Below, piece after piece: positions 1 through 20,022 of a stretch of 20,191 nucleotides of DNA. Positions within the stretch are counted from its first letter, which is position 1. Each line of letters opens with the position of its first letter. This DNA comes from a virus. Made by a program: the position numbers and the translations under genes. The notes under the pieces were generated by a model that saw only the letters and a program-made list of their open reading frames with translations, searched no databases and was not told the DNA's origin. The stretch lies in the IMG/VR virus record IMGVR_UViG_3300033148_003042, positions 1 through 20,191 of that record. One strand, 5' to 3'.

Positions 1-226
1 GAACGTGTTTAACAAATGTTGTTAGTCCATCCTTTTTACTAAAACACACTGGGCAAGTAAAAACTTGTCCGGGCATTTCCAACTCGTTTCCATCCTTATC
101 AACTAAAACAGCCAATCCTCCTTTTATAAGGGCATCCGCATCGGTAACGTCAATAACGTCACCTATTTTCATGTCTAGATTTTCTGATGGATTCCAATTT
201 TCTGAAGTTTTTTTAACTAATGTCAT
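1..226 (-). CDS. Partial small protein with a CPVC zinc-finger start
   Basis: An open frame begins at the ATG at 226 and runs off the window edge with no stop. It reads MTLVKKTSENWNP, then a short acidic region, then VFTCPVCFSKKDGLTTFVKH just before the edge. The CxxC pair followed by a His 14 residues later looks like the first half of a C2H2-type zinc finger; the last ligand would lie outside the window. It overlaps the upstream gene by ATGA (stop 223-225), so it is probably translationally coupled to it. No family was recognised. It resembles the zinc-finger protein at 12509-12781 in layout only. Confidence 0.7.
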   Translation of the reverse strand, partial: MTLVKKTSENWNPSENLDMKIGDVIDVTDADALIKGGLAVLVDKDGNELEMPGQVFTCPVCFSKKDGLTTFVKHV

Positions 227-426
227 TTATCTGTCACCACCTTCTCTGTCTGGGTTTTCCTTACTGTGTCTAAACCCGAATTTTTTAATAACTGTTTCCA
301 TATTTGTCCAGCATGTTCTGGTGCCATAAAATGTTGTGACACGGCTATTTCTAAAGCTTTTGCCAACCGAAGCATCTCTTGTGGAACAGAAGGTATTGAT
401 GGTTTTCGTACCGGTAAAGATTTCAT
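223..426 (-). CDS. Small hypothetical protein (67 aa)
   Basis: A 67-residue basic protein that I do not recognise. It has a Pro-rich start (RKPSIPSVPQEM), a helical middle (LRLAKALEIAVSQHF) and a Thr/Lys-rich tail. The start lies one base after the stop of the zinc-ribbon gene (428) and its own stop overlaps the next start as ATGA, so it belongs to a tightly packed operon of three small genes downstream of the glycosyltransferase. A weak GGGAAA lies about 8 nt before the ATG. There are no Cys pairs and no membrane segment. Confidence 0.65.
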   Translation of the reverse strand: MKSLPVRKPSIPSVPQEMLRLAKALEIAVSQHFMAPEHAGQIWKQLLKNSGLDTVRKTQTEKVVTDK

Positions 427-427
427 T

Positions 428-625
428 TTAAAATTTCCCTAAATCACGCTTTGGTCTATCCATTGGACCAGAGCCACTGCCCCTATACCTTTTTAAATAT
501 TTGCTTTTTTCAGAACAAATACGACTACAATATTGTGGTTTAGTATCTCGAAGGTCTCTCAAAATTACTTCTTTTCCACACGCTGGGCATTTACCCTTGG
601 TTCTAGATATTGCTGTATTTTGCAT
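428..625 (-). CDS. Small zinc-ribbon protein (65 aa)
   Basis: The protein reads KGKCPACGKEVILRD near its start and QYCSRICSEKSKYLKRYR in the middle. This is two CxxC-type pairs about 20 residues apart, the pattern of a small treble-clef or zinc-ribbon domain. The C-terminus is basic. It starts inside the stop of the glycosyltransferase gene (TAATG, shared base 625) and has a strong ribosome site, AAAGGAGA, 5-6 nt before the ATG, so it is translated well independently of coupling. Function is unknown; nucleic-acid binding is a guess from the fold. Confidence 0.8.
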   Translation of the reverse strand: MQNTAISRTKGKCPACGKEVILRDLRDTKPQYCSRICSEKSKYLKRYRGSGSGPMDRPKRDLGKF

Positions 626-3132: not shown

Positions 3133-3147
3133 ATATGTAACTAAAGA

Positions 3148-3165
3148 TAGTGGTCAAACCTACTA
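3148..3165 (-). other. Hairpin in the glycosyltransferase leader
   Basis: On the transcribed strand TAGT-A-GGT, loop TTG, then ACC-ACTA forms a 7-bp stem with one bulged A, 15 nt before the ATG at 3132. There is no T-tract, so it is not a terminator. It may affect translation of a gene that has no visible Shine-Dalgarno site. Confidence 0.4.
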
Positions 3166-3192
3166 CCTATGGTCCAATATTTAATTTTTAAC

Positions 3193-3480
3193 TTATACTA
3201 GCTTTTTGTGGTCTGAGCCGGCTTTTGTGCTTACTCTACCTGGAAGTCTAGATACTTTTTGTAATTTAGCTGATGAGCTGTCTGTAACACCTTTCTCATT
3301 AGTTAAATTGACTGATTGTCCAAAAGGAGCTTTATCCATTGCATAAGACTGGTCTGCCTTAATAGGAGCATTATTATCGTCTCCTTGCTGGAAACCTCTC
3401 TTGCTAAAAGGTTTTTTCTCAGACGTCTTTACCATTGGTTTTAAATTTTTATCGTAATCTGTTGTTGGGTTGTTTTTCAT
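3193..3480 (-). CDS. Hypothetical basic, disordered-looking protein (95 aa)
   Basis: A Lys/Ser/Asp-rich protein with no hydrophobic core, ending in a basic stretch (RLPGRVSTKAGSDHKKLV). It is probably unfolded on its own. It lies in the structural region between a small virion-region gene and the glycosyltransferase. It has a good ribosome site (AAGGCGGTG, 11 nt before the ATG) and a TTGACA box just after the upstream stop, so it seems to have its own expression signals. A minor virion or assembly protein is possible, but no family was recognised. Confidence 0.75.
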   Translation of the reverse strand: MKNNPTTDYDKNLKPMVKTSEKKPFSKRGFQQGDDNNAPIKADQSYAMDKAPFGQSVNLTNEKGVTDSSSAKLQKVSRLPGRVSTKAGSDHKKLV

Positions 3481-3519
3481 GAATATATTTCACCGCCTTC
3501 TAAGAGTAACTAACTAATA

Positions 3520-3548
3520 ATTTCAACATACTAAACATAATTTGTCAA
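3520..3548 (-). promoter_or_regulatory. Candidate promoter for the 3193-3480 gene
   Basis: TTGACA (3543-3548), a 17-bp spacer, then TGAAAT (3520-3525, a weak -10). The -35 lies 2 nt after the stop of the upstream gene. Unlike the leaderless promoters elsewhere in the window, this one leaves a leader of about 30 nt holding a ribosome site. Confidence 0.5.
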
Positions 3549-3550
3549 TA

Positions 3551-3862
3551 CTATGCATTTAAATAGTATCTAGCTTTGTTTTCGTTGATGTATTTTGAGG
3601 GAGTTTCCCCTATTGAAATAACTGCTTCTTTCCACAGTGTAGAATTATCTGCTCCGACAGAAGGAGTGTCTCCACCATCTATTATAACTTGCTTAAGCCA
3701 TAAATCCTCTAGGGAACCAACTGACGTGTAATGAGATGGGTCTACTGTAATTTGAGATAGATAAAAAACCTTTCTGAGTTGATTGTGTGGAGTCTGTGCT
3801 GTAGCTCCAGTAACATTCTCCAACATAAAAGTTCGTTCTATAGCGGTTAAGTTTATAGCCAT
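3551..3862 (-). CDS. Hypothetical small virion-region protein (103 aa)
   Basis: A compact mixed protein (MAINLTAIERTFMLENVTG...) with many Thr/Ser/Tyr residues and the end ISIGETPSKYINENKARYY. It lies two genes downstream of the major capsid protein, where head-completion or decoration proteins often sit, but no family is recognised. The start is the ATG at 3862, 17 nt after the upstream stop. There is no Shine-Dalgarno site. TATAAC lies 6 nt before the ATG, which resembles the leaderless starts elsewhere, but the matching -35 is poor. Confidence 0.75.
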   Translation of the reverse strand: MAINLTAIERTFMLENVTGATAQTPHNQLRKVFYLSQITVDPSHYTSVGSLEDLWLKQVIIDGGDTPSVGADNSTLWKEAVISIGETPSKYINENKARYYLNA

Positions 3863-3879
3863 ATCTATGTTATATCAGA

Positions 3880-4266
3880 CTAAGCCTTCTCTGCGATAGC
3901 AAATTGTGGGTACTTCTTTAAAAATGTCCTATAAAATTTTTTGTCCATAGGAAGCTGGTCTGCCTTATATTGTGTTCTTATAAGTAACTGTAAACTCATA
4001 GGAAAAATTAAAGTGGCTCTTCTCTCCATATCCTTTCCCCCTTTTGTCTGTCCAAACTTCTTATCATAAAGTGTTTCCCTCTGTTCAGAAATATCTATTT
4101 TTAACGCCTCGACCTCTTCCGGCGCTTTTTTCTGCCATGCTTTAACTAGCTCATCAATAACCAGCCACGGGTCTTTCTTTTTTCGAAGCTCATCAATCCT
4201 CTCAGCTAGTTCATAGCTGTCTGAATTTACGATTCTTCCTGTTTCTGTAACAATTAATTTACTCAT
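3880..4266 (-). CDS. Hypothetical protein downstream of the capsid gene (128 aa)
   Basis: I place the start at the ATG at 4266 (MSKLIVTETGRIVNS). The frame stays open up to a TTG at 4350, but that stretch reads through two hairpins and looks non-coding. The protein is rich in charged helices (SYELAERIDELRKKKDPWLV, then VKAWQKKAPEEVEALKI) and ends in a basic region with KKYPQFAIAEKA. No family is recognised; its position just after the capsid gene suggests a virion or head-assembly role. No clear ribosome site precedes it, and a strong GC hairpin ends 22 nt upstream. Confidence 0.75.
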   Translation of the reverse strand: MSKLIVTETGRIVNSDSYELAERIDELRKKKDPWLVIDELVKAWQKKAPEEVEALKIDISEQRETLYDKKFGQTKGGKDMERRATLIFPMSLQLLIRTQYKADQLPMDKKFYRTFLKKYPQFAIAEKA

Positions 4267-4445
4267 ATATTTTTCAATAGGTTCGGAGGGGAGTAAAACT
4301 CCCCCCGTCGCCCTGTTGTTTGTATTTGGCAATCTGTGTGCCAGTCCCAAATACTGTTTTCAAACTTGTCGGTGGGTAGCGGGAGTGAAAAGCCCCCGGT
4401 TCTGTACGCCCCCCTAGCTAAAGTCAGAAGACTAAAAAGTTAGAT
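4267..4445 (-). other. Structured intergenic region after the capsid gene
   Basis: This 179-nt spacer is far more GC-rich than its surroundings. On the transcribed strand it holds GGGGAGT-TTT-ACTCCCC (4288-4304, perfect 7-bp stem), GTATTTGG paired with CCAAATAC (4322-4329 with 4347-4354, perfect 8-bp stem with a 17-nt loop), and a G-run/C-run segment at about 4368-4413 (GGGGGGCG..., CGGGGGC...CTCCCG) that can pair in several ways. None is followed by a T-tract, so it does not look like an intrinsic terminator. It may stabilise the capsid mRNA or limit readthrough expression downstream. Confidence 0.6.
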
Positions 4446-5354
4446 TTAACCGTTTTGGTTATATCCTGTTCTCTTTAAGTCTGCTCTTTCTTCAAGAACT
4501 TCTAGTGTGAACTCTGTCACCCATTGACCTCTGTCAGCGTCACCAATCTTGCTAATCTCTTGGAAAAGAGGTTTGTCAAGGTAGGCAATTTTGTGCATTT
4601 CTTCTCTTAGACCGTAGACGGTAGTTGTACCGGCGGTGTTCTGAACGTCTCTGTGATGCATGATTCTATGTGAACCAACAGCTGAGTCGTAAACGAGAAC
4701 GTCTTTAATAAGACGTCTGTCTGAAGCGTCAATATATCTAGTAGAGTTACCTGAGAATCCAGCAATTGCTTGCTTAATTTTCACGGTACAAAGAACCATA
4801 TCGAAGACCTTGTCAGCTGACACCGCAGTGTAAGCATCGGAAGCCATGTCGTTTAGTTCTGCCTCTGAGAATGAAGTACCGGAATTTCGAGCGGTAGCAT
4901 TAGTCGTAATGAAGGCGTTTATTCCTGTCATTGTCCTAGCGGTACCGGATGAACCGGAAGCCTTTGTTGAGTTAAGAATGGCATATTCCATCTTTAACTT
5001 TAACTGACGTAAACCGTCAGACTTCTGGAACGCGTATGGGTCGCCGATAGCGGCAACGTTAACTCGTCTCTCTGTTCTGGAAACTTGAATAGATTGTGGG
5101 ATGATATGCGTGATGTTACTCTCTCTGGAAGGTGCAGTAAGGTCTGCGAATTCAGCATCCGCTCCTTCAGCAGCTGAACTTGTTGACGCAGGTCGTGAAA
5201 TGTTATATTTCAACCACTCGTGTAAAGTTCCTCTGGCTGTGCTTGTTCCAAAAAGCGTCATCAACGGTGTCTCATCTGGACTCACGTCCGCGAGGACGTC
5301 CATTAAATCTTCTCTTCTAGAAGTATCTTGGTATGTAATTAAACCCCAAGCCAT
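4446..5354 (-). CDS. Major capsid protein (SU10/DUF5309-like)
   Basis: A 302-residue protein starting MAWGLITYQDTSRREDLMDV. The early DVSPDETPLMTLFG, the ADAEFADLTAPSR stretch, SIQVSRTERRVNVAAIGDPY and the end VTEFTLEVLEERADLKRTG match my memory of the HK97-fold capsid group once called DUF5309 (SU10-type). It would assemble the icosahedral head. The frame is open to an ATG at 5396, but that codon lies inside a perfect hairpin; I chose 5354 because AGGGGGAGGTG precedes it, although the spacing to the ATG is long (about 14 nt). The gene follows the scaffold gene directly, the usual head order. Family assignment is from motif recognition, not a search. Confidence 0.85.
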   Translation of the reverse strand: MAWGLITYQDTSRREDLMDVLADVSPDETPLMTLFGTSTARGTLHEWLKYNISRPASTSSAAEGADAEFADLTAPSRESNITHIIPQSIQVSRTERRVNVAAIGDPYAFQKSDGLRQLKLKMEYAILNSTKASGSSGTARTMTGINAFITTNATARNSGTSFSEAELNDMASDAYTAVSADKVFDMVLCTVKIKQAIAGFSGNSTRYIDASDRRLIKDVLVYDSAVGSHRIMHHRDVQNTAGTTTVYGLREEMHKIAYLDKPLFQEISKIGDADRGQWVTEFTLEVLEERADLKRTGYNQNG

Positions 5355-5392
5355 GTTATATTTATTTTCACCTCCCCCTAATAAATGTTTAT

Positions 5393-5428
5393 CCATATCA
5401 TTTTAATCCCAGTAATGGGATGATATGG
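5393..5428 (-). other. Strong hairpin before the capsid gene
   Basis: On the transcribed strand CCATATC pairs with GATATGG and, inside it, ATCCCA-TTAC-TGGGAT forms a second perfect stem, with a 6-nt bulge between the two. The structure fills the scaffold/capsid junction and ends 38 nt before the capsid ATG. There is no T-tract. Likely roles are mRNA stability or a processing site that lets capsid be made in excess of scaffold. Confidence 0.6.
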
Positions 5429-5436
5429 AATCCACA

Positions 5437-6405
5437 CTATGGGGTTGTCGTAGTCTTTTCTCCAACGTGGTCAGTATTCGCAAGTCTCCTTGCAATAGCT
5501 TCTAGATTTCCCTCTCGAGATAATCTAACAAGCCTTTCTCTGTCTTCTGTTGGTTCAGACTGTGGTCGAGCCGGTGGTTGTTGTCCTGCCGTATCGGCAG
5601 CCGCCTGTTCTTTCAGTGCTTGAGCAGCATCAACTGGTGTTGTTGCGTCTCCTGCGACTGGTGTAGCGGGAGCTCCTTCTGGAGCCGCTGTTGTTGTAGT
5701 TGGTTCAGTCACGTCTGTTTTGACTTCTTTAGATGATTGCGCGTTTTTAACGTAGTCGGCTGCTTCTTTGAAATGCATTGGTCTCCCACCGTAGTCTTCT
5801 GGTGATGTCATAGAATCAATCAGAACTGACCTAACTTGTCTGTGAAATTCTTTATCATGAGTATCTGACTGAGGATTCAGTTCAGGATACGTAGAGAAAG
5901 TCTCTCTGTTTTGTCGGTCAATATCTTTTGCTTCTGACGTTTTGATGTAGCTCTGTACCGCTCTTTGAGCGTTGGTTGCTTGTGTATTAAGGGCCTCAAT
6001 CTTATCTTTAAGTTTGATTTCATTAATAAACTTTTGACCTGTTACAGGGTCTATCTCAACAAAATCCTCTGGATTTACTTTATCTTGAGCTTGAGACTGT
6101 ACTGGTGGTTGGTTCAATGGACTAACTTGTTCGTTTGCTTCTTCTCTCCTCTGTTGAGCATCCAATAGAGACTTATTTGCCTCCATTAGTTCTTTATTAG
6201 AATCAAGCAGTTTGTCAAACTGTTCTGTCGTCCTTTTATTTTCTGTATTTATTGTTGGCTTACTAGGTGCTGCCGGTGCTGGTGTAGCTGAAACTGCTGG
6301 TGCCGCTGGTGTAGCTGGTACCGCAGGAGCTGTTTTAGCTGGAGCAGGAATAGTAGCTGCCTTTTTAGAAGCGTCCTTTACGGGCGCGTTATCTTTGGTT
6401 GCCAA
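5437..6405 (-). CDS. Scaffolding protein
   Basis: A 322-residue protein with a low-complexity Ala/Pro/Thr N-terminus (about residues 5-50), a charged helical middle rich in Gln/Glu (EQFDKLLDSNKELMEANKSL, likely coiled coil), a second Ala/Thr/Pro linker near 245-285, and a charged end (EDRERLVRLSREGNLEAIA). This composition and its place directly before the capsid gene are typical of phage scaffolds, which guide head assembly and then leave. The start is a TTG at 6405: AAGGAGGTG lies 7 nt before it and no ATG fits. The family was not matched by a specific motif; the call relies on composition and context. Confidence 0.8.
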   Translation of the reverse strand: MATKDNAPVKDASKKAATIPAPAKTAPAVPATPAAPAVSATPAPAAPSKPTINTENKRTTEQFDKLLDSNKELMEANKSLLDAQQRREEANEQVSPLNQPPVQSQAQDKVNPEDFVEIDPVTGQKFINEIKLKDKIEALNTQATNAQRAVQSYIKTSEAKDIDRQNRETFSTYPELNPQSDTHDKEFHRQVRSVLIDSMTSPEDYGGRPMHFKEAADYVKNAQSSKEVKTDVTEPTTTTAAPEGAPATPVAGDATTPVDAAQALKEQAAADTAGQQPPARPQSEPTEDRERLVRLSREGNLEAIARRLANTDHVGEKTTTTP

Positions 6406-6513
6406 GTGTTTTCACCTCCTTCTTGTCGTGTCCAGTTGTTTTCGGGAGCTCGGACATCTCTCCCATACGGATGTGTGGTTTTCCGTACACATTGGCTAAT
6501 TTTTAAAAATGTG
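6406..6513 (-). promoter_or_regulatory. Structured leader and ribosome site of the scaffold gene
   Basis: The 108-nt spacer holds two stems on the transcribed strand: TACGGA/TCCGTA (6482-6487 with 6466-6471, 10-nt loop) and GGGAG/CTCCC (6460-6464 with 6444-6448, 11-nt loop). A rival pairing, TGTG with CACA, overlaps the first stem. A strong ribosome site, AAGGAGGTG, follows just before the TTG start. No promoter is evident. Confidence 0.5.
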
Positions 6514-6795
6514 CTAAAATCCTATGGCCTTTCCTTTCGAAAATAATTTGCCATCACGGATTTCCAAGTCTTTGCCAGTAAGGCCGAAATGGCACTTCTG
6601 ACATCTAACGCCACCTGGCGCAGTTTTAAAATTATGTTCGCATTTTTTATGTGGTAAAACTTCTTCACGATTGAGTTCGTTATCACCCCAGTAGTCAGCA
6701 GATTTAACTTTGTAGAAATTATCTTTTGAATTCCACTGTAAACTTTGCGGGTCTGATTTAGGAAGTGGCGGTAATACTTTATCATTTGGTGACAT
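6514..6795 (-). CDS. Small zinc-binding protein in the head operon (93 aa)
   Basis: The protein starts MSPNDKVLPPLPKSDPQSL and carries CEHNFKTAPGGVRCQKCHFG near residues 52-71, a C-H...C-x2-C-H pattern expected to bind one zinc, followed by LTGKDLEIRDGKLF. Another open frame overlaps the same span on the same strand but lacks this coherent motif and is rejected. The gene lies between the portal-linked gene and the scaffold. No ribosome site is visible before the ATG at 6795. A minor role in head assembly is possible; no family name is certain. Confidence 0.8.
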   Translation of the reverse strand: MSPNDKVLPPLPKSDPQSLQWNSKDNFYKVKSADYWGDNELNREEVLPHKKCEHNFKTAPGGVRCQKCHFGLTGKDLEIRDGKLFSKGKAIGF

Positions 6796-6802
6796 TTGCT
6801 AT

Positions 6803-6822
6803 GTACTGGGTTAGCCTATAAG
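6803..6822 (-). other. Small hairpin in the 6795/6823 spacer
   Basis: The 27-nt spacer reads TTAGC-TTATAG-GCTAA on the transcribed strand, a perfect 5-bp stem, in front of a start with no Shine-Dalgarno site. Confidence 0.3.
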
Positions 6823-7167
6823 CTAAATCCTCATTGTCTTCCTTTGTAACTCACCAGAACGTACTTTGTCAAGATACTCCGCCTTTTCTATGATTTCTTG
6901 AATACCATTTAACAGCTCTTTTGCGTTATTAGCAGCGTGAAACCCGTTAAGTTCTCTCCATTCCCAATCGTCCCTGTTGTCAACCTCTCTTGGGTCAACC
7001 CAGCTATGGTATGCTGCTTTTTCTAATTGTTTGACTACAATCTTCCAGCCCGCAGTCTTAGTCATCTCGTAGACAGCCTGTGCATCTCTTAGTTCTTCAA
7101 CTTCTTGTGGTTTTAATGGGTTTTTGACCTCAGCGGCTTCTTTTTGGTCCTTTTTCGAATTAGACAT
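6823..7167 (-). CDS. Hypothetical helical protein between portal and scaffold (114 aa)
   Basis: A charged, mostly helical protein: a Lys/Glu-rich N-terminus, then QAVYEMTKTAGWKIVVKQLE, then a Trp-rich centre (SWVDPREVDNRDDWEWRELN), then a long helix to the end (LLNGIQEIIEKAEYLDKVRS). It begins 14 nt after the portal stop and has no ribosome site, so coupling to portal translation is likely. Proteins of this size and helical style after the portal gene are common in phages, but the function is not known to me. Confidence 0.75.
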   Translation of the reverse strand: MSNSKKDQKEAAEVKNPLKPQEVEELRDAQAVYEMTKTAGWKIVVKQLEKAAYHSWVDPREVDNRDDWEWRELNGFHAANNAKELLNGIQEIIEKAEYLDKVRSGELQRKTMRI

Positions 7168-7181
7168 ATTTAAATTAATTA

Positions 7182-9350
7182 TTAACCAGTAGGACTTTTA
7201 CTATATTGGTCCTGTATCTGTTTTAAATATTTTGGATTTGGTTGACCAAGATTCTGGTCTTTTGGCTCATCTGGTTTACTTAATCCAGGCATAGTTTTCG
7301 CTAATTGATTAGCACCCTGTCCATCTCCCATTTCTTGAGATTCACCCTGTCCTTTTCCACCAAACATACTCATAATATCTTGTTCTTGACCTGGTGCTCC
7401 ACCTGGTGCTCCACCTGATGTTTCCTCGAAGTATTTTCCAGCGTCACCGAAACCAAGGTCTTCCAACCATGTGACAAATAGCTCTTTAAATTTAGGTTTA
7501 ACTCCCTCTTGTTGTAATAGGGCCAATAAATTGGGATTAGACACAAGTAGGGAAACAGCAGTTTGTCGACCCTGTCTCTTTTCCTCATCTGCACTTACAG
7601 TCATAGACTCAACATCAACTGAAAAGTCGAAGTTACCTCTTAAATCCTCTGGTTCAATATGAAGTTCACCATATAGACCATCATCCTCTTTTTTAAACTT
7701 TGGTATCAAATTAATATTACCATCTTTACTATTGTTTACAGGATACTTAGGAATGGTTAAACCCTTTCCTTCTGTAGCTTCGGACAACTCCTTAAGGTCA
7801 AGTCCAAGAATCTCAGACTGTTTCTTTAATAGTTGTACGGTAACATCTTCTATTTCTTCATCTCCAAGTCCTTTTCCTATAAAATAATCCAAAGCATCTT
7901 TCCCAACTATTCGAATCGTATAAAACTTCTTCTCTGGGTCTGTAAAGATAAGCTTTTGATTCATCATGTGCCACAACATCATCTGTCTCTTAATAGCGTC
8001 TGCCAACATTAATTGATTATAATTGTCTCTAGCGTTCCTCTGTAGTTGCAAGGCTTTAACCTCTGTAGCGGTCTTATCCTGTGAAAATGGTCTCATGTTT
8101 GAAACACCTAGAGATGTTTCTCCCAGGGCGTTCATCATAGCCGCGACCAAAACAGAATAAGTGTTATTGAAGTATTGAGCAGCGTTTGACTTTGATTCAA
8201 CCAGTCTAAAGTCAGTTAAAGGGTTGCTCATTATCCATCGAGCACCCTTACCCCACTCAAGCGTATGTTGTTTCACTCCTGGACCAACAGCAATAGGAGA
8301 ATACAGATTTTGATTAATTTCATCGACATATTGACATAAAAGAGCGTTAATAGCCTTCTGAAGACCCTTAACTGGCTCAATTTCTGATAAACCATACAAA
8401 TCATCATCTATCACATAGTATCTAAGCATTACTATAGGCAGTTCGTAGTTTTCGTATGGATTTGGAATGTCTCTCAAGATAATTCCGTGTTGGGGAGCAA
8501 AAGTAATCCATCTATCCTTCCTATATTCAGTACAAATCTCAACAGTTTTAAAAACAAGGTCTTTAGACATTGGGTCACTCTCTAAGCCAGAAATTTCTCT
8601 ATTCTTTGACCTCCAATTAGTATCTCTTGAATCTCCGGTACCACCCTTTTCAGACTCTGTTCCTATGGAATCCCTTAAGGTAGCAATGTTTTTATAAATT
8701 GGCTTTTCTCTCGCATGGTCGTTAACTCTTTCTAGTTCTTGCATGGTGACATATTTCCTCACCTGAATCCAATTACAGCTTTCTATAGATGTAGCCGTCA
8801 TGTCGTGCGCAACATCCCTATTATTCAAAATCTCCATGTCTGGACCATCAAAAACAACCTTGCCTTTTCCGTCCAACTCATATCTCCATTTATGCAAAGC
8901 AAATGATGCCCCATATTTGCGAGCATTAATATCCATCAGCGCCCACTTCTGCAACATGGTTCCACCACGAGTAGCATTGTCCCACTGATAATCTAGTAAA
9001 GCATTGTTAACTTTTGCGGCCAACATATCTCCGCCTTCCCTAGGAATAAGTCTTCCCTTAGGTTTACTAGCAATCAAACGTGAAGTTTTCTCAAAAATGA
9101 AAGTGAAAATACGTGGGTCAAATAAAAGAGCATCATATGGCCAACTGTCTTCATCCAAATGAGACCTAAATAATTCATCAGCCTCATCAAATGAAATTGA
9201 ACCTATTCTACCAGAACCGGTAGCCCTTCTCTCTGTCTCATCAAAACCATCTTGGTAATGTCTATGAGCTTCGTCCCAAGCCAACTCTTCTTTTCTCTTT
9301 GTTGCAGAAAGGTCAGCGTCTATTTGTTTTTTTGTCTTTTTCTTTGCCAT
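7182..9350 (-). CDS. Portal protein
   Basis: A 722-residue protein forming, by inference, the dodecameric DNA channel at one vertex of the head. It has a basic start (MAKKKTKKQID), a conserved-looking early region (LLFDPRIFTFIFEKTSRLIA), a central stem/wing region with PNPYENYELPIVMLRYYVID and KGLQKAINALLCQYVDEINQ, and a Gly/Pro/Gln-rich low-complexity tail with tandem GGAPGGAPG near residue 653. Length and layout fit the large portals of podovirus- or SU10-like phages. It lies downstream of terminase and upstream of scaffold, the usual order. The ATG at 9350 has no Shine-Dalgarno site; the 46-nt spacer before it is AT-rich. Confidence 0.85.
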   Translation of the reverse strand: MAKKKTKKQIDADLSATKRKEELAWDEAHRHYQDGFDETERRATGSGRIGSISFDEADELFRSHLDEDSWPYDALLFDPRIFTFIFEKTSRLIASKPKGRLIPREGGDMLAAKVNNALLDYQWDNATRGGTMLQKWALMDINARKYGASFALHKWRYELDGKGKVVFDGPDMEILNNRDVAHDMTATSIESCNWIQVRKYVTMQELERVNDHAREKPIYKNIATLRDSIGTESEKGGTGDSRDTNWRSKNREISGLESDPMSKDLVFKTVEICTEYRKDRWITFAPQHGIILRDIPNPYENYELPIVMLRYYVIDDDLYGLSEIEPVKGLQKAINALLCQYVDEINQNLYSPIAVGPGVKQHTLEWGKGARWIMSNPLTDFRLVESKSNAAQYFNNTYSVLVAAMMNALGETSLGVSNMRPFSQDKTATEVKALQLQRNARDNYNQLMLADAIKRQMMLWHMMNQKLIFTDPEKKFYTIRIVGKDALDYFIGKGLGDEEIEDVTVQLLKKQSEILGLDLKELSEATEGKGLTIPKYPVNNSKDGNINLIPKFKKEDDGLYGELHIEPEDLRGNFDFSVDVESMTVSADEEKRQGRQTAVSLLVSNPNLLALLQQEGVKPKFKELFVTWLEDLGFGDAGKYFEETSGGAPGGAPGQEQDIMSMFGGKGQGESQEMGDGQGANQLAKTMPGLSKPDEPKDQNLGQPNPKYLKQIQDQYSKSPTG

Positions 9351-9396
9351 GGTCTATTGTTCTAGGTTATCAAGCTAATTGGTATGTAGTCTAGGG

Positions 9397-9759
9397 TTAC
9401 TTTTGTAATGCCTTTTTTAAAGTTTCTTCTGGACGTTGTAAAATTACATTTTCGTTCATCTTGGTAGCTTCTTCTCCACGAACAAAAGCTACTACTCCAT
9501 CCTGTACTTCAACAGTCACTTTTCCATACCTACTTCCCATTGACAGGTTATGTAAATGTCTTATAACCTGGAAAAGAACCAAATAATTTACTCTGGTCTT
9601 TTCTAAGAGCTCCATGAGAACATATATTTCAGGACGTATTTGTTTAATAATATCTGAAAATACCCTTACGTTATTTTCCTCTTCAATATCGTATTCAGAC
9701 TTCCCAGCCTTTTGCTTCTTAAATTGTTCTTTCTGTTTCTTTGTATGTTTCTTTTTCAT
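9397..9759 (-). CDS. Hypothetical protein between terminase and portal (120 aa)
   Basis: A strongly basic N-terminus (MKKKHTKKQKEQFKKQKAGK) leads to a helical domain (FSDIIKQIRPEIYVLMELLE, then VNYLVLFQVIRHLHNLS) and a beta-like segment (YGKVTVEVQDGVVAFVRG). It starts 1 nt after the stop of the terminase nuclease gene and has a GGAGAT ribosome site 11-12 nt upstream, inside the end of that gene. No family is recognised. Its place suggests a packaging or head-vertex accessory role. Confidence 0.75.
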   Translation of the reverse strand: MKKKHTKKQKEQFKKQKAGKSEYDIEEENNVRVFSDIIKQIRPEIYVLMELLEKTRVNYLVLFQVIRHLHNLSMGSRYGKVTVEVQDGVVAFVRGEEATKMNENVILQRPEETLKKALQK

Positions 9760-9760
9760 T

Positions 9761-10456
9761 CTATTTAAATCTCCATTTTTCTCTATGAGCCCTCATTCTT
9801 TCTGGTTCAAACTCACCAAAGTCGGTATCTGGAGTAACTTGAGCTATTTGCCAAGCCCCCGCGCTCGCCATAACCAAGTCATCATGTCTCTTAGCTTTCG
9901 CCTGCGCGCGACCTTTAACTATCACAAATGATTTTAACTGACCAATTTGCTCTTTGTCGTACATTTTTAACTTACCCTGTTTAATAGCTAGAGCCAAGTC
10001 GTCAAGCATTTTTCGTCTTGTACCCTTTAATTCTCCTCCAGAGATGTGTCCTGTAGTAACCCAACCGATTTGTCCCTTCTCATGGGTTTGTCCAGAAGCG
10101 AAGTCAACCATTCTAAACATGTCTGGATAATTATTTTGTTGTAGCACAAAGATTGTAGCCTGACCAGTGTTTCTTTCGACCGCAAGTTTAGGCCACAAGT
10201 TGGTCCTTGTTTGAACATATTTGCCTATGTTATGAAGTTCATATCCAAACTGAGAAGATTCCATCACCTCATTAAATACTATAGGAAAATCAAAATGCTT
10301 CTTGCTAAAACAAACCGCAGCACAGAAATCCTGAGAATCAGCTGGGTCAGCAAACATCACTAGCTGTTCATTTATATCTAGCTTACGATATACCCTGCAC
10401 GGATATTTCTCACTCGCTACGTATGGATTTATTATGTCTTCTTTTTTATCTGTCAT
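9761..10456 (-). CDS. terL: Terminase large subunit, nuclease part (separate gene)
   Basis: A 231-residue protein matching the C-terminal RuvC/RNase H-like nuclease of large terminases, which cuts the DNA concatemer during packaging. Visible motifs are LVMFADPADSQDF (first acidic residue D37), KLAVERNTGQA (E94) and KRHDDLVMASAGAW (D192/D193). It is not fused to the ATPase: the ATPase gene stops at 10453 and this one starts at 10456 (ATGA). The N-terminal 30 residues look like linker, so the nuclease domain seems whole. There is no separate ribosome site, so it likely relies on re-initiation after the ATPase stop. Confidence 0.85.
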   Translation of the reverse strand: MTDKKEDIINPYVASEKYPCRVYRKLDINEQLVMFADPADSQDFCAAVCFSKKHFDFPIVFNEVMESSQFGYELHNIGKYVQTRTNLWPKLAVERNTGQATIFVLQQNNYPDMFRMVDFASGQTHEKGQIGWVTTGHISGGELKGTRRKMLDDLALAIKQGKLKMYDKEQIGQLKSFVIVKGRAQAKAKRHDDLVMASAGAWQIAQVTPDTDFGEFEPERMRAHREKWRFK

Positions 10457-11346
10457 CGTGCTGAGGTCTGGAACGAAAAGTGTCCATCTGGTAATATGAT
10501 TCCGAATTCTTCCGGTATAGTGGCATCTTTTAACATTTTGTTTAACTTGGCTACATCAAAGTAAGGAGAGCCAGACGTGATAAACGCCTCTTCTGGGGTA
10601 CTTGGATACTCCTGCATCCACATCTGGTCTGTTGGGAACTCCAGTCTCTTCTTCTCCACCCATTCTTTTGTGTAAAATTCTTGCCATCCAAAGAACCTTG
10701 TAGTATAAGAGCTTTTCCCCTCTTCAGCCCTAAGCCACTCTGAATGATAAAAATTACCCTCACCATTAGCAGTAGATTCAATAAAAATCATTCCCCTATC
10801 TTGGGGAACCTGCTGTGAAGTGGCCAAGATGATTTCCTCCGCAGTAATAAGCTCAGTGTCTTGGTAAAAGGCGCCCTCAGAGAAATGGACGTTCCTGGCA
10901 GAACCACCACGACCTCCGACCTTAGTACCAGCCGTACCAATGTAGAACATTGCGTTATTGGTAGCGTTTTCTAACATGTTTTTACTATCGGTCTTTAAAA
11001 GCTTATCCATGTCCAACCCGTTCTTTTCGCAATAGGACTCCAAATAAAACTTTACTTTCTTAAATAAAAGTTCTGTAGCATCTTTCCTATGGGATATACA
11101 GATGGAGATAGAATATGGTCTGAACAAAAAATCTACCGCAAAGAGGGCCAAGATAAGAGAAGAAAAACCTTGCTGTCTGGCTTTTAAAATAATATCACGA
11201 ATACCATCCATGTGCGGTGTCTCTTTAAGTAAAACTTTCATGTATTTCTTCTGCACCTTATTTAACTTAAATGGAACAGGAACCTGATTCTCACGGTCCA
11301 ATACCTCAAAATTTTCTTCTATGAAATTAACGTAATCAATCTTCAT
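10453..11346 (-). CDS. terL: Terminase large subunit, ATPase part (separate gene)
   Basis: A 297-residue protein with the packaging-motor ATPase domain only. It shows an adenine/Walker A region (KARQQGFSSLILALFAVD, residues 55-72), a Walker B-like RNVHFSEGAF (151-160) and a coupling motif IFIESTANGEGNFY (187-200), then EYPSTPEEAFITSGSPYFD, which ends the ATPase domain in fused terminases. The protein stops soon after, where the nuclease would begin; that part is the next gene. Start: ATG at 11346 with GAGAGG upstream, overlapping the TerS gene by 11 nt. Each half has its expected motifs, so this looks like a functional split rather than decay. Confidence 0.88.
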   Translation of the reverse strand: MKIDYVNFIEENFEVLDRENQVPVPFKLNKVQKKYMKVLLKETPHMDGIRDIILKARQQGFSSLILALFAVDFLFRPYSISICISHRKDATELLFKKVKFYLESYCEKNGLDMDKLLKTDSKNMLENATNNAMFYIGTAGTKVGGRGGSARNVHFSEGAFYQDTELITAEEIILATSQQVPQDRGMIFIESTANGEGNFYHSEWLRAEEGKSSYTTRFFGWQEFYTKEWVEKKRLEFPTDQMWMQEYPSTPEEAFITSGSPYFDVAKLNKMLKDATIPEEFGIILPDGHFSFQTSAR

Positions 11347-11869
11347 CTACAACCTCTCCCTCGATTGCATCGTCATCGAGAACATACTTCTCTAACATCT
11401 TCTGTTGTCCACCAATAATCTGAACAATTCCCGGATTGATTTGGTTCTTCTCATCTTTAACAGGATTATTGTGTCCAGCAATTGCCATTAGCCTATCCCA
11501 CCAATCAGTATTCTTAGACTTTTCCATGTTTTGCACGGCGACATCAAGTAATTTTCCATAACCAACATTTTTACTCTCTAAATAAATTCTCCCAACCTCT
11601 TTTGCTTGCTTAAGCATTCTACTTCCCATCACTGCCGCACTCGCGCGTGTAGATGGATTAAAAACAATCATTGCCGCCTCTGTGGCGTTACCACCATTCT
11701 TTAAATATTCTTCTAAAAATAGGTCAACTTTCTTAAACTCTCTTAGCTTAAGTTCTTTCGTCTTTCTCTTCTCAACAGCCTTTTTACCAGACTTAGCCTT
11801 GTCTATTGTCGCCGGTAACTTAGCTTTCTTAGTTATCTCTGGTATTTTATTTTTTTTCTTACTAGGCAT
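11336..11869 (-). CDS. terS: Terminase small subunit
   Basis: A 177-residue protein with a very basic N-terminal third and then a helix-turn-helix region, EYLKNGGNATEAAMIVFNPS followed by VMGSRMLKQAKEVGRIYL, the usual DNA-recognition signature of small terminases. The C-terminus is acidic (DDDAIEGEVVDED), suited to contact with the large subunit. It would bind the packaging site and load the motor. The gene lies directly before the ATPase gene (11-nt overlap) and overlaps the previous gene by 8 nt. Confidence 0.8.
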   Translation of the reverse strand: MPSKKKNKIPEITKKAKLPATIDKAKSGKKAVEKRKTKELKLREFKKVDLFLEEYLKNGGNATEAAMIVFNPSTRASAAVMGSRMLKQAKEVGRIYLESKNVGYGKLLDVAVQNMEKSKNTDWWDRLMAIAGHNNPVKDEKNQINPGIVQIIGGQQKMLEKYVLDDDAIEGEVVDED

Positions 11870-14323: not shown

Positions 14324-14352
14324 ATACTACTACAAACTAAATCCTCTGTCAA
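14324..14352 (-). promoter_or_regulatory. Leaderless promoter of the 14108-14317 gene
   Basis: TTGACA (14347-14352) contains the TGA stop of the upstream gene; 17-bp spacer; TAGTAT (14324-14329, 4 of 6 consensus); 6 nt to the ATG at 14317. Confidence 0.6.
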
Positions 14353-15332
14353 GACTTGTTCCATCGGTCCATCTCTTCTCCAGCTCTCAAAATATTATGT
14401 TGGTAAACCACTTCATTCCTATCCGGCATCAATAGTACACTAGCACCGAACATCTCTTCCGGTTGTTGTTCTACCCAGCCGTGTTTACGACTATAATCAT
14501 CTTGGCTTTTATATGGGCCTAATGCTAAGTAGTGAACTTGGTGTCTCTTGTTCCCAAATGCTTTTACCGTATCTCTAGAGTAACCTTTCTTATGATTATG
14601 GGCTGAAACTACGATATTACTTCCAAATGCTCCACCATGCCTATTAACAGCTCTCATTTGAGGGTGAGTATTATTATAAATACTTGAGCCGGGCAACTGA
14701 TGAGCCATTGTTATGTTATAAGTCTGTTCTCCTACATAAAGCGTTAAATAAGACATTCCTTGCATGTAATGTGCTCCATAAGTGTCAGCAAACTCTGAAT
14801 ATGGGTTTACACCCATCTTTTTTGCCCACAAATCATGGTCTCCACCCACGGCAGCCAATAATCGCTTATCTTCCGCAACGTGTTTCAACATAGCCTTCAT
14901 ATACTTCAATTGTTCAGGTGTTTGCTCCATTTGTTCCATTTGAGCGCTATTGAAGAAGAAAGCATCCATAAGGTCACCCATAAAGACGATATATGAGTTA
15001 GGTGTACCTATAATGACATCTATTTCCTGTTCTATCCTGTCATAGTCAACAAAACCACTACCAACGTGTAAATCGGGAATAAAATTGATGCAGTTTACCT
15101 CATCTGGTAATCTTATCTCTACATGATTGGTTGGTACTTCAAAGTTTTCCTTGAATTGCTCAGCTCTCTGTCTAAATCTAGGTGAATGGTAATCTTTAAA
15201 TCCTCGCTCCAGAGGGAGTGGTGTAATAAACTCCGGTTCTGGTAATTCTCCTCTCAACGCATACTCCTTTCGAATCTGTGCATCTGAAGAAAAATCCTTC
15301 TCATCTGGTCCTCTATACAATCCTTTTTCCAT
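14349..15332 (-). CDS. Calcineurin-like metallophosphoesterase
   Basis: A 327-residue protein with all signature motifs of the superfamily: FIPDLHVGSG (D87/H89), FMGDLMDAFF (G119-D123), AAVGGDHDLWA (GDHD at 164-167, a GNHD variant), H211 in MAHQLPG, and VVSAHNHKKG (H245/H247). These bind two metals and cleave phosphomono- or diesters. The first 80 residues are an extra, charged extension. The phage substrate is unknown; DNA ends, cyclic nucleotides and RNA 5' ends are all possible. There is no ribosome site; the 72-nt spacer before it is AT-rich with no clear promoter. Confidence 0.88.
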   Translation of the reverse strand: MEKGLYRGPDEKDFSSDAQIRKEYALRGELPEPEFITPLPLERGFKDYHSPRFRQRAEQFKENFEVPTNHVEIRLPDEVNCINFIPDLHVGSGFVDYDRIEQEIDVIIGTPNSYIVFMGDLMDAFFFNSAQMEQMEQTPEQLKYMKAMLKHVAEDKRLLAAVGGDHDLWAKKMGVNPYSEFADTYGAHYMQGMSYLTLYVGEQTYNITMAHQLPGSSIYNNTHPQMRAVNRHGGAFGSNIVVSAHNHKKGYSRDTVKAFGNKRHQVHYLALGPYKSQDDYSRKHGWVEQQPEEMFGASVLLMPDRNEVVYQHNILRAGEEMDRWNKS

Positions 15333-16161: not shown

Positions 16162-16254
16162 TTACTTGCTTTTACAAAACAAAAAAAAGAACATTAAGGT
16201 TGTGATAAGCCCCAGTAGTGTTCCCGCCAATAAAATTTGCCAAAAATAGGTCAT
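16162..16254 (-). CDS. Tiny membrane protein (30 aa)
   Basis: Reads MTYFWQILLAGTLLGLITTL then MFFFLFCKSK: a single hydrophobic span with a basic end. The ATG follows directly on the TAA of the preceding gene (GATAAATG) and uses the repeated cassette (copy with AAAAGAT, a weaker ribosome site). Function unknown. Confidence 0.6.
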   Translation of the reverse strand: MTYFWQILLAGTLLGLITTLMFFFLFCKSK

Positions 16255-16488
16255 TTATCTTTTGTGTTTAGTAATTTTAATATCTAACATTTTTCCTCTT
16301 TCTACAAGGTCAGACCTGCAAAACTTGTCATACTCAGCTAAAGACTTTCCAACAGATTTTTTAATCTTTCCATCTTCAAAACCAAACAACCAAGATAATG
16401 AATTCTTTGTTTTCATACCAAGTTTCTTCTCAAGTACATCTAAGCAGTTAATTAAGTCTATTGTTTCTGATAGTGTTAATTTCTTCAT
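16255..16488 (-). CDS. Hypothetical protein (77 aa)
   Basis: Reads MKKLTLSETIDLINCLDVLE then a charged centre (SWLFGFEDGKIKKSVGKSL) and ends ITKHKR, which is encoded by the repeat cassette. It looks like a small soluble alpha/beta protein; no family is recognised. Its start uses a cassette copy, and its own end forms the next one. Confidence 0.7.
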   Translation of the reverse strand: MKKLTLSETIDLINCLDVLEKKLGMKTKNSLSWLFGFEDGKIKKSVGKSLAEYDKFCRSDLVERGKMLDIKITKHKR

Positions 16489-16501
16489 CTATCTTTTGTG
16501 T

Positions 16502-16888
16502 TTAGTAATTCCTTATTCTCGTGCTGTCTTTATAAATATTGCCGATTATTTCAAACTTTCCTCTACTCATTCCTTTGTGTAATTTCCAAGAACCCCAGTC
16601 TTTATCCCATTTGACAACACAAGTCGTTTTAATAGGTCTGTTTCGGTAATAAGCCCCTCCATTATCAGGACAGATAAATTCCTTCTTAATCCAAGTATTT
16701 GTTAAAATATCCCCCTCGTATATCTCCTTACCATTCTTGTCCTTTAAGCCTGTGTATTGTAAAAATACAACATATTCGCTTTCTTCTAATAACTCATTTA
16801 GTCCTTCAGTATTTCCCTCAAGTGGTCGGTTGCAACCAATCATCTCCTTACTCTTTTTTAACCAAGCTTTGAATTTAATTTGTTTCAT
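16502..16888 (-). CDS. YopX-family protein (128 aa)
   Basis: Carries the family signature VFLQYTGLKDKNGKEIYEGD (residues 41-60) and TCVVKWDKDWGSWKL, followed by FEIIGNIYKD, all typical of the YopX group found in Firmicutes phages. Its biochemical role is unknown in the family. Start from a cassette copy with the good AAAGGAT site. The N-terminus MKQIKFKAWLKKSKEMIG also fits, as family members usually begin with a FRAWD-like segment. It ends RIRNY at the TAA inside the next cassette copy. Confidence 0.85.
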   Translation of the reverse strand: MKQIKFKAWLKKSKEMIGCNRPLEGNTEGLNELLEESEYVVFLQYTGLKDKNGKEIYEGDILTNTWIKKEFICPDNGGAYYRNRPIKTTCVVKWDKDWGSWKLHKGMSRGKFEIIGNIYKDSTRIRNY

Positions 16889-17053
16889 CTATCCTTTGTG
16901 TTTAGTAATAGGTTTTTTATTTTGTAACCATTTTTTTATATTCTCACGACCTCTTTCAAGGTTCTTTTGGCAATTCTTACAATCACGGTGATTTTCAGCT
17001 ATCAAATGTTGTGGATACCATCTAGTGTGTGCTAAACATCCGTTTATGCTCAT
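16889..17053 (-). CDS. Small Cys/His protein (54 aa)
   Basis: Reads MSINGCLAHTRWYPQHLIAE then NHRDCKNCQKNLERGRENIK and ends KPITKHKG, encoded by the repeat. C6/H9 and CKNC at 25-28 could bind one zinc. It overlaps the upstream gene as ATGA and starts from the shortened cassette copy. Function unknown. Confidence 0.65.
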   Translation of the reverse strand: MSINGCLAHTRWYPQHLIAENHRDCKNCQKNLERGRENIKKWLQNKKPITKHKG

Positions 17054-17226
17054 CTATCCTTTGTGTTTAACCATTCAATAAAAGTTTCTATGTCTGTGTT
17101 CTTATGTAAATGACCCCACCTTTCTCCCGTTTTCTCGTATTCCTTTGCACACCACTTGATACTTGAGTCATTGTCTTCGTTTGTTTCTTTGACAAACTTC
17201 TTAAATAGTTTGATTAAGTCTTTCAT
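17050..17226 (-). CDS. Hypothetical protein (58 aa)
   Basis: Reads MKDLIKLFKKFVKETNEDND then SSIKWCAKEYEKTGERWGHL and ends EWLNTKDR. The end is encoded by the shortened cassette read in a different frame from its neighbours, with TGA overlapping the next ATG. Soluble and charged; no family recognised. Start from a cassette copy with AAAGGAT. Confidence 0.65.
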   Translation of the reverse strand: MKDLIKLFKKFVKETNEDNDSSIKWCAKEYEKTGERWGHLHKNTDIETFIEWLNTKDR

Positions 17227-17239
17227 TTATCCTTTGTGT

Positions 17240-17398
17240 TTAGTAATCATCTTTTCCAATTATATATCCGAGAAACGCAGGGAGAATAAACAACAACATC
17301 ATCACGAACTTAATCCACAGTTCATCTGGTTTTGTAGTTACAGAAAAGAACATTGTTGTTATGAACACTGTTAATATTATTATTGCTGTTATCTTCAT
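17240..17398 (-). CDS. Small two-span membrane protein (52 aa)
   Basis: Reads MKITAIIILTVFITTMFFSV then a short polar loop (TTKPDELWIKF) and a second span (VMMLLFILPAFLGYIIGKDD). Two transmembrane helices. It ends at the TAA inside the next cassette copy and starts from the first copy. Function unknown. Confidence 0.65.
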   Translation of the reverse strand: MKITAIIILTVFITTMFFSVTTKPDELWIKFVMMLLFILPAFLGYIIGKDDY

Positions 17399-17419
17399 CT
17401 ATCCTTTGTGTTTAGTAAT

Positions 17420-19300: not shown

Positions 19301-19687
19301 TTAGATACCAACTATTCCAGCATATGCATCAGAAAAATCAACTATATTACCATACAGGTCAGAAGAAAGGTCTTCAGCAAGTCCTCTACCATACATAAAC
19401 GCGGCTGTCCTGTTTTTTGACTTAAATGACTTATACTGGTTTCCATAGGCTTCCAGCTCTTGTTTTAGCCTAAAGCTATCATCCTTGACATATTTATCCC
19501 ACCACGCTTCTGGATTACCAGCTTGTTGTCTAGAATGGGTTTTCTCGTGTGTCATCAGTTCCGGAGAAATAACTATGTTGTCAGGATTATATATCTTTTC
19601 TCCATAAGAAAATATTACTCCTGAACGGAGGGTAAACTTTTTTCTAATGTCTTCTATGTTCGGTGGGAATCCTTTTACTATTTTCAT
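19301..19687 (-). CDS. HExxH metallopeptidase-like protein (128 aa)
   Basis: From the ATG at 19687: ISPELMTHEKTHSRQQ carries HEKTH at residues 47-51, with a possible third ligand in LKQELEAYGNQY (E77 or E79). The spacing of about 26-28 residues fits zincins. The rest is small and aromatic. A GTG at 19690 is also a possible start; the upstream stop overlaps as TGATG. AGAGG lies close to the start. It could be a small phage protease or a degenerate family member; a similar HECLH protein is encoded at 12996-13385 but shares no obvious sequence beyond the motif. Confidence 0.75.
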   Translation of the reverse strand: MKIVKGFPPNIEDIRKKFTLRSGVIFSYGEKIYNPDNIVISPELMTHEKTHSRQQAGNPEAWWDKYVKDDSFRLKQELEAYGNQYKSFKSKNRTAAFMYGRGLAEDLSSDLYGNIVDFSDAYAGIVGI

Positions 19688-20022
19688 CACCTCTTGGTCT
19701 TATTCCATTCCTCTCTGCTAACCGAATTATTTATCCTCTTCACCTTCACATTCACCTTAGCCAGTTTTACATCACAGTCGTCAAAAGCTATGTCCACATC
19801 TCCATCACCCTTCACTCTCACCTCAAATGGCTCTAGCCCCAACTTCTCCCCCCATCTCTTAGCCCAGTCAATACCACTGCCAGACCATATAATCATGTCA
19901 TTGCCCATAGCTTGAAACCACTTGTATATAGCTATAACATCGTAATTGGGTGTTATCTCTCGTCTCTCAAGAGCTATGCCAGGAATTATTAGTGTGTCAT
20001 CTACGTCGAATGCTATTTTCAT
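19687..20022 (-). CDS. HAD-like phosphatase (111 aa)
   Basis: Reads MKIAFDVDDTLIIPG: D6 and D8 are the nucleophile and acid of the HAD fold. DMIIWSGSG (S47) is motif II, the Lys in RVKGDG (K71) may be motif III, and IAFDDCD (D81/D82) is motif IV. At 111 residues it is minimal, lacking a cap domain, like phage nucleotidases or the phosphatase half of polynucleotide kinases. Substrate unknown; DNA or RNA 3' ends or nucleotides are plausible. No ribosome site; a 13-codon frame upstream ends in its ATG as ATGA. Confidence 0.8.
   Translation of the reverse strand: MKIAFDVDDTLIIPGIALERREITPNYDVIAIYKWFQAMGNDMIIWSGSGIDWAKRWGEKLGLEPFEVRVKGDGDVDIAFDDCDVKLAKVNVKVKRINNSVSREEWNKTKR

Follow-up and report, generated by a model that had tools for sequence, protein, structure and literature searches.

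A stop/start junction repeated at six small-gene starts of a phage appears to derive from the 3′ end of a YopX-family gene

Phages have been known since 2011 to carry start-associated repeats, and we know of no explanation for their origin or role. In cluster K mycobacteriophages, the start-associated sequence is a 13-bp element, GGGATAGGAGCCC; most of the genes that have it are preceded by a spacer of more than 50 bp, and some sites also carry inverted repeats (the extended, 17-bp form) and putative promoters (PMC3203893, PMC11373665). Citrobacter phage Mordin has a 26-bp repeat, ATCCTAAACTGGAGAATCTAAA, located directly before the starts of small genes in one arm of the genome (PMC4611695, KT363872). 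Two other kinds of short junction sequence are relevant here. In lambdoid phages, short conserved DNA at gene boundaries has been proposed to serve module exchange (PMC3029335, citing Clark 2001; Susskind and Botstein 1978). In ATGA-type overlapping gene pairs, the stop codon lies on or abuts the next start, and the two genes are expected to be coupled by termination–reinitiation (PMC6728339, PMC10666635).

Here, we describe a start-associated repeat in a 20,191-nt stretch of viral DNA (IMG/VR record IMGVR_UViG_3300033148_003042, positions 1 to 20,191), hereafter ‘the window’. Between positions 16252 and 17419, the minus strand carries six copies of a 24-nt cassette with the consensus ATTACTAAACACAAAGGATAGATG, start codon included. 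All copies are on this strand, and each terminates in the ATG of one of six consecutive small ORFs (Table 1). The copies were searched with the 18-mer pattern TACTAAACACAAAGGATA, allowing up to 3 mismatches, against a background of dinucleotide shuffles; the chance expectation was 0.03 copies, and six were never reached in the shuffles. This confirms the central claim of the first-pass annotation, namely that a 24-bp sequence occurs six times in 1.2 kb, each time at a gene start. Over the 18-mer, three copies are exact, two (at 16490 and 16256) have AAAAGA instead of AAAGGA, and the copy at 17055 has a divergent left end, with GGTTAAACAC replacing TACTAAACAC. Identity between copies ends abruptly at both edges, which are ATTAC on the left and ATGA on the right. 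Upstream of the copies, neither a conserved sequence nor an inverted repeat was found, the flanking gene sequence is not duplicated along with them, and an Rfam search of the cassette gave no match. The six downstream proteins have no mutual similarity; only the 128-aa protein has a family match (YopX), and the 58- and 77-aa proteins have no homologs among phage records. A near-identical 46-kb contig, G001, contains the same six copies and no further ones.

Table 1. Cassette copies, genes of the block and its edges in the window
Feature	Positions	Strand	Remarks
Conserved gene, HAD-like by sequence motif	19687..20022	minus	Bounds the variable block on its upstream side; L011 version 88% identical
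Gene preceding the array, 167 aa	17420..17923	minus	Stop just ahead of copy 1
Cassette copy 1, ATTACTAAACACAAAGGATAGATG	17396..17419	minus	Start of 52-aa gene
Small gene 1, 52 aa, hydrophobic	17240..17398	minus	Without family match
Cassette copy 2, ..GGATAAATG	17224..17247	minus	Start of 58-aa gene; 52-aa gene stops inside (TAC TAA)
Small gene 2, 58 aa	17050..17226	minus	Without homolog in phage collection
Cassette copy 3, altered left end ATGGTTAAACACAAAGGATAGATG	17051..17074	minus	Start of 54-aa gene; 58-aa gene reads through to EWLNTKDR-stop, stop = TGA of ATGA
Small gene 3, 54 aa	16889..17053	minus	Without family match
Cassette copy 4	16886..16909	minus	Start of YopX gene; 54-aa gene ends ..ITKHKG-stop (TAG abutting ATG)
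YopX-family gene, 128 aa	16502..16888	minus	Pfam PF09643 (E 1.7e-16), phrog_98; frameshifted tail GNIYKDSTRIRNY-stop
Putative relict YopX C-terminus, ENKELLNTKDR-stop	16485..16520	minus	Frame ending at ATGA stop
Cassette copy 5, AAAAGA variant	16486..16509	minus	Opens 77-aa gene immediately behind YopX; putative source
Small gene 5, 77 aa	16255..16488	minus	Without homolog in phage collection
Cassette copy 6, AAAAGATAAATG	16252..16275	minus	Opens 30-aa ORF; 77-aa gene ends ..ITKHKR-stop (TAA abutting ATG)
Small gene 6, 30 aa, hydrophobic, MTYFWQILLAGTLLGLITTLMFFFLFCKSK-stop	16162..16254	minus	
Conserved phosphoesterase/exonuclease-like gene	14349..15332	minus	Downstream edge; 85–87% identical in L009, L010 and L011

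The cassette resembles the cluster K sequence in that it is a short asymmetric repeat placed directly before the starts of several unrelated small non-structural genes, in a single orientation, with conservation that extends past the SD. It differs in sequence, as had been noted in the first pass (ATTACTAAACACAAAGGATAGATG versus GGGATAGGAGCCC), overlaps the stop of the upstream gene, and is accompanied by neither a spacer of more than 50 bp nor 17-bp inverted repeats upstream; it also appears to be derived from a gene 3′ end. Mordin repeats lie in intergenic gaps of ~60–140 nt (from the record annotation) and have a stronger SD, whereas the cassette sits on the upstream stop. Unlike lambdoid boundary sequences, proposed to be common to exchanging genomes, the cassette is one junction repeated within one genome; unlike ATGA pairs, the whole 24-nt junction is copied and is usable from any upstream frame. 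In one frame, the cassette reads as the conserved C-terminus of the YopX family (PF09643), ENxELL plus a tail, both in the window phage and in a distant relative, G005, but five of the six copies no longer belong to a YopX gene. A gene-end origin is not reported in the papers on cluster K and Mordin repeats consulted here. In the present case, in two phages that are distantly related and whose cassettes differ, a start repeat seems traceable to the coding end of a gene family next to it. This suggests a concrete and testable route by which phages may add small genes without disturbing operon translation; it also lends itself to the design of an intercistronic linker that works in any frame.

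Conservation past the SD, as in cluster K (PMC3203893), would also be expected of a binding site for a regulator, either protein or RNA, a function suggested for the cluster K sequences. We regard such a site as very improbable here: YopX codons account for the left half of the cassette, there is no inverted repeat and no Rfam match, and the fixed spacing to the ATG fits translation.

The upstream ORFs enter the cassette in all three frames. (i) The first frame closes at the TAA of TACTAA and is used by the genes at 17240 and 16502 (ending in DDY-stop and RNY-stop). (ii) The second closes directly before the ATG, as AAA GGA TAG or AGA TAA, and is used by the genes at 16889 and 16255. (iii) The third closes at the TGA of ATGA (GAT AGA TGA) and is used by the gene at 17050; all six cassette starts are ATGA. 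Since upstream ORFs use all three frames, the cassette is conserved as DNA, and the earlier statements that upstream genes end on it in different frames and that conservation is not at the protein level both held. The accompanying claim of stops in three frames is correct if the TGA formed by the ATG and the next A is counted; otherwise, two frames are closed. Three-frame closure is useful but not rare, being present in 17% of same-composition shuffles and at 12 of the 166 ATGA sites on the minus strand (the six cassettes among the 12). With 17% of shuffles having it, we rejected three-frame closure alone as proof of design.

The distances from the upstream stop to the cassette ATG are 21, 13, −4, 0, 13, and 0 nt, from the first copy to the sixth; elsewhere in the window, such distances are widely spread. 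Thus, three of six junctions (−4, 0, and 0 nt) have the overlapping or near-start stop of coupled genes, two are at 13 nt, and one is at 21 nt. For the junctions at −4 to 0 nt, termination–reinitiation is expected from published work (PMC10666635). A gap of ~20 nt almost abolishes translational coupling (PMC10666635); gaps of 13 and 21 nt are long for coupling, and direct initiation would matter more at those junctions.

The ribosome site ascribed to the cassette stands in part. AAAGGA is present, but it is weak, lies close to the ATG, and is changed to AAAAGA in two copies. At −9 to −4, it is nearer to the ATG than the strong sites of the window, for instance, AAGGAGGTGAAAACAC-TTG. With such an SD, the cassette is not simply a strong ribosome site. 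The predicted unpaired probability at −14 to −4 is above that of 33 other window starts of similar AT content (one-sided p ~3e-4).

A leader of this kind might represent a generic start-site consensus of the host and not a repeat at all. A scan of genome contigs with the 18-mer returned seven single-copy matches and no array. In two unrelated bacterial genomes, one from Arcobacter and one from the Gastranaerophilales (two sites in the latter), the 18-mer immediately precedes an ATG; such a leader can therefore stand at a gene start elsewhere. Similarly, A-rich, SD-less leaders, e.g., TTAATTAATAAAACAAA-ATG, recur at a dozen genes of the leftward operon of G001 (L030, positions 1–11400 of that contig, minus strand), in contrast to the rightward operon. 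We consider a host consensus extremely improbable, given that the window has 33 other rightward starts, none of them similar to the cassette. A gapped scan for the layout ATTACTAAA..AAARG..ATGAA gave, outside this species, only single matches among those listed, which we read as chance. A search of genome contigs with the terminase, aimed at a host or prophage, yielded none.

Copy 5 lies directly behind the YopX gene. We surveyed 92 YopX homologs from 79 loci of other phages, which were also scanned for repeated pre-start sequences. Nearly all of the 92 have a C-terminus consisting of GNIYENPELL and a short tail. The window protein diverges right after GNIY (KDSTRIRNY-stop), with a frameshift just ahead of copy 5. 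In the alternative frame, copy 5 reads HENKELLNTKDR-stop, which is the best match to a YopX tail in ~94,570 positions. HENKELL at this copy is the sole match at its score in the 94,570 frame positions of the window, L030, and L031 (G001 32000–46144), and it is found 11 nt past GNIY; the 11 nt at 16521–16531 displace the relict C-terminus from the YopX frame. Neither this match to the YopX 3′ end nor the different cassettes of relatives in the same slot had been noticed in the first-pass annotation.

Among these loci, the scan for pre-start repeats turned up a second phage that has the same arrangement with another sequence. G005 (IMGVR_UViG_3300030493_000068), whose terminase is 32% identical to that of the window, carries TTACTAAATAGCGAAA five times, at the starts of five consecutive genes that include its YopX gene. 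The copy behind YopX (copy 4) is read in frame as GNIYDNPELLNSERE-stop, with the tail DNPELLNSERE-stop, so that an ENxELL tail occurs at the expected distance after GNIY in both phages, in frame in G005 and in the alternative frame in the window. The window and G005 cassettes share the beginning (A)TTACTAAA because YopX proteins end in GNIYENPELL.

A flank test was carried out with only the sequence outside the cassette and a profile built from independent YopX homologs of other phages. In the window, ENKE before LL gave a p of ~1e-4 at copy 5, and the remaining copies gave 0.10 or worse; in G005, DNPE gave a p of 1.7e-4 at the YopX-adjacent copy, and the other four gave 0.03 or worse. For the other five window copies, YopX homology did not extend significantly into the upstream flank in this test, and YopX-like sequence beyond the 24-mer is therefore a property of the YopX-adjacent copy and not of all copies. 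Because only that copy has a YopX-like flank, in the window as in G005, it is the likely source, and the restriction of the flank to one copy fits copying from it. The cassette is thus very probably the 3′ end of a YopX-family gene, apparently copied five times. The simplest reading, and a likely one, is that the YopX-adjacent copy is the source and that the others were copied from its last codons together with the overlapping next start. Independent capture of several YopX tails is a possible alternative to copying, the direction of which is read from flank homology.

YopX paralogs adjoin each other in several loci, and genes 1 and 3 of G005 share a YopX-like N-terminus (MKEIKFK and MREIKFR). 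The copies could accordingly be the remains of a tandem YopX array, each being the surviving 3′ end of a paralog that has otherwise been deleted or replaced. We judge this unlikely, since a significant YopX-like flank is present at the YopX-adjacent copy only, in both phages, and the other window genes contain no remnants of a YopX body.

The survey also bears on the right half of the cassette. Of the 92 YopX genes, 40 overlap a start as ATGA or GTGA, and in 45 the final six codons include an SD-like core; a YopX gene-end origin would, on these figures, account for the SD-like stretch in the cassette. YopX 3′ ends recur at least twice in their own locus more often than other ORF ends do (8.7% versus 2.5%, p 0.006), a comparison to which paralog arrays of YopX and low-complexity tails contribute as confounders; no recurrence was found in the cultivated phages FNU4, Abouo, and Davies. 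A start repeat, AAATAATGGAGGTGGAGT-ATG/GTG, occurs 4–5 times in another YopX-bearing phage, IMGVR_UViG_3300017991_000208 (L088, L134). Within the coding sequence of the window YopX gene (~16565–16590, minus strand), AATTACACAAAGGAATGAG is similar to the cassette apart from two short deletions, a likeness that may be due to chance.

We think it probable that the 24-mer is a stop/start junction from a YopX gene end, copied within the small-gene block and acting at translation. In general terms, the process can be rationalized into two stages. (i) Origin and spread: the last YopX codons (..E-LL-N-T-K-D-R-stop) would have overlapped, as ATGA, the start of the gene behind, and copies of this junction would then have come to lie at five further gene boundaries within the block of small early genes. 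(ii) Use: an upstream ORF in any frame would be terminated ~0–13 nt from the next ATG (one junction, at 21 nt, has an independent stop); an unstructured A-rich leader and the short SD-like AAAGGA would present that ATG, and ribosomes finishing one small gene could start the next. Such a junction may also be of benefit in the gain and loss of genes.

The exact cassette is confined to one viral species, so the copying events cannot be placed on a tree. This confinement, the near identity of the copies, and the degraded SD-like core of two of them are features that neutral recent duplication, with no selected role, would also leave behind. We find this quite improbable, as every copy is exactly at a gene start in a single orientation, no flanking gene is duplicated, and distant phages have the same arrangement with other sequences.

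Comparison with close relatives revealed a slot that is hypervariable. In L009, L010, and L011, the terminase ATPase is 91–93% identical to that of the window, and the 24-mer is absent. The interval from the HAD-like gene to the phosphoesterase gene measures 4.3 kb in the window and 1.35 kb in L011, where it is filled with unrelated small genes. An exact 24-mer scan of viral contigs found it in the same species only, near-identical contigs do not differ at the cassette, and no relative with the same 24-mer but a different gene set was present in the collections searched. In the proposed check, a search of related phages for the 24-mer followed by a comparison of gene content, the block genes do differ in L011, but L009–L011 have no 24-mer to compare. 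Diverged copies in a fixed gene order, which had been named as the sign of a duplication with no role, were not seen; L011 has other genes and no 24-mer.

These data bear on the first-pass proposal of an active recombination joint, in which 24-bp identity is kept for gaining, losing, and swapping small genes. The completely different gene content between conserved flanks in L011, the entry of upstream ORFs in three frames, and the replaced left end of copy 3 are all consistent with it, and the conserved boundary sequences of lambdoid phages are a precedent for the idea (PMC3029335). We hold an active joint to be plausible but less likely than not: no strain pair with breakpoints in the cassette was found, near-identical contigs are identical there, and the relatives lack the 24-mer, so their differences cannot stem from crossover within it.

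Close relatives seem to use joints of their own. L009 (positions 712–1081) has a different one, TTAAGAGCTTATGA, in three exact copies and one with two mismatches (chance 0.2), which upstream ORFs read as ..KSL-stop, with the stop overlapping ATGA; not every ATG of this joint opens a long ORF. The same joint occurs once in L011 (192–214), and the sole L009 copy with extended homology to L011 ends a DGYNQ gene. The divergent L009 copy differs by no more than two synonymous changes within KSL; for this joint, conservation could thus be at the protein level. Nine loci from a scan for a second cassette (L019, L020, L022–L025, and L027–L029) were dismissed as chance matches; they encode no relative of the window proteins. 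L011 also has a non-coding region (490–720) ahead of the HAD-like gene; it contains repeated motifs similar to TATAGTGGTTTACAG as well as inverted ones and may be an early control region.

Tentatively, and with some reservation, the YopX case can be extended to a general model in which phages assemble accessory small-gene arrays with a frame-independent stop/start adaptor, copied from the 3′ terminus of a coupled gene that they already carry. Start-associated repeats would then be recycled gene ends, with an adaptor of its own in each lineage; the donors would be YopX in two phages and perhaps a DGYNQ-type gene in a third.

Outside the small-gene block, the large terminase consists of two ORFs overlapping by ATGA (window 9761–10456 and 10453–11346, minus strand), as it does in L009–L011; in G005, it is a single 555-aa ORF. 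A 317-bp segment of the window (9075–9391), which includes the start of the portal gene, is absent from the otherwise 99.99% identical G001 and present in L036; its absence reflects either a deletion or an assembly error in G001. At the right end of G001 (L031), a long row of apparent glycosyltransferase and methyltransferase genes was found, a run unusual for a phage of such size.
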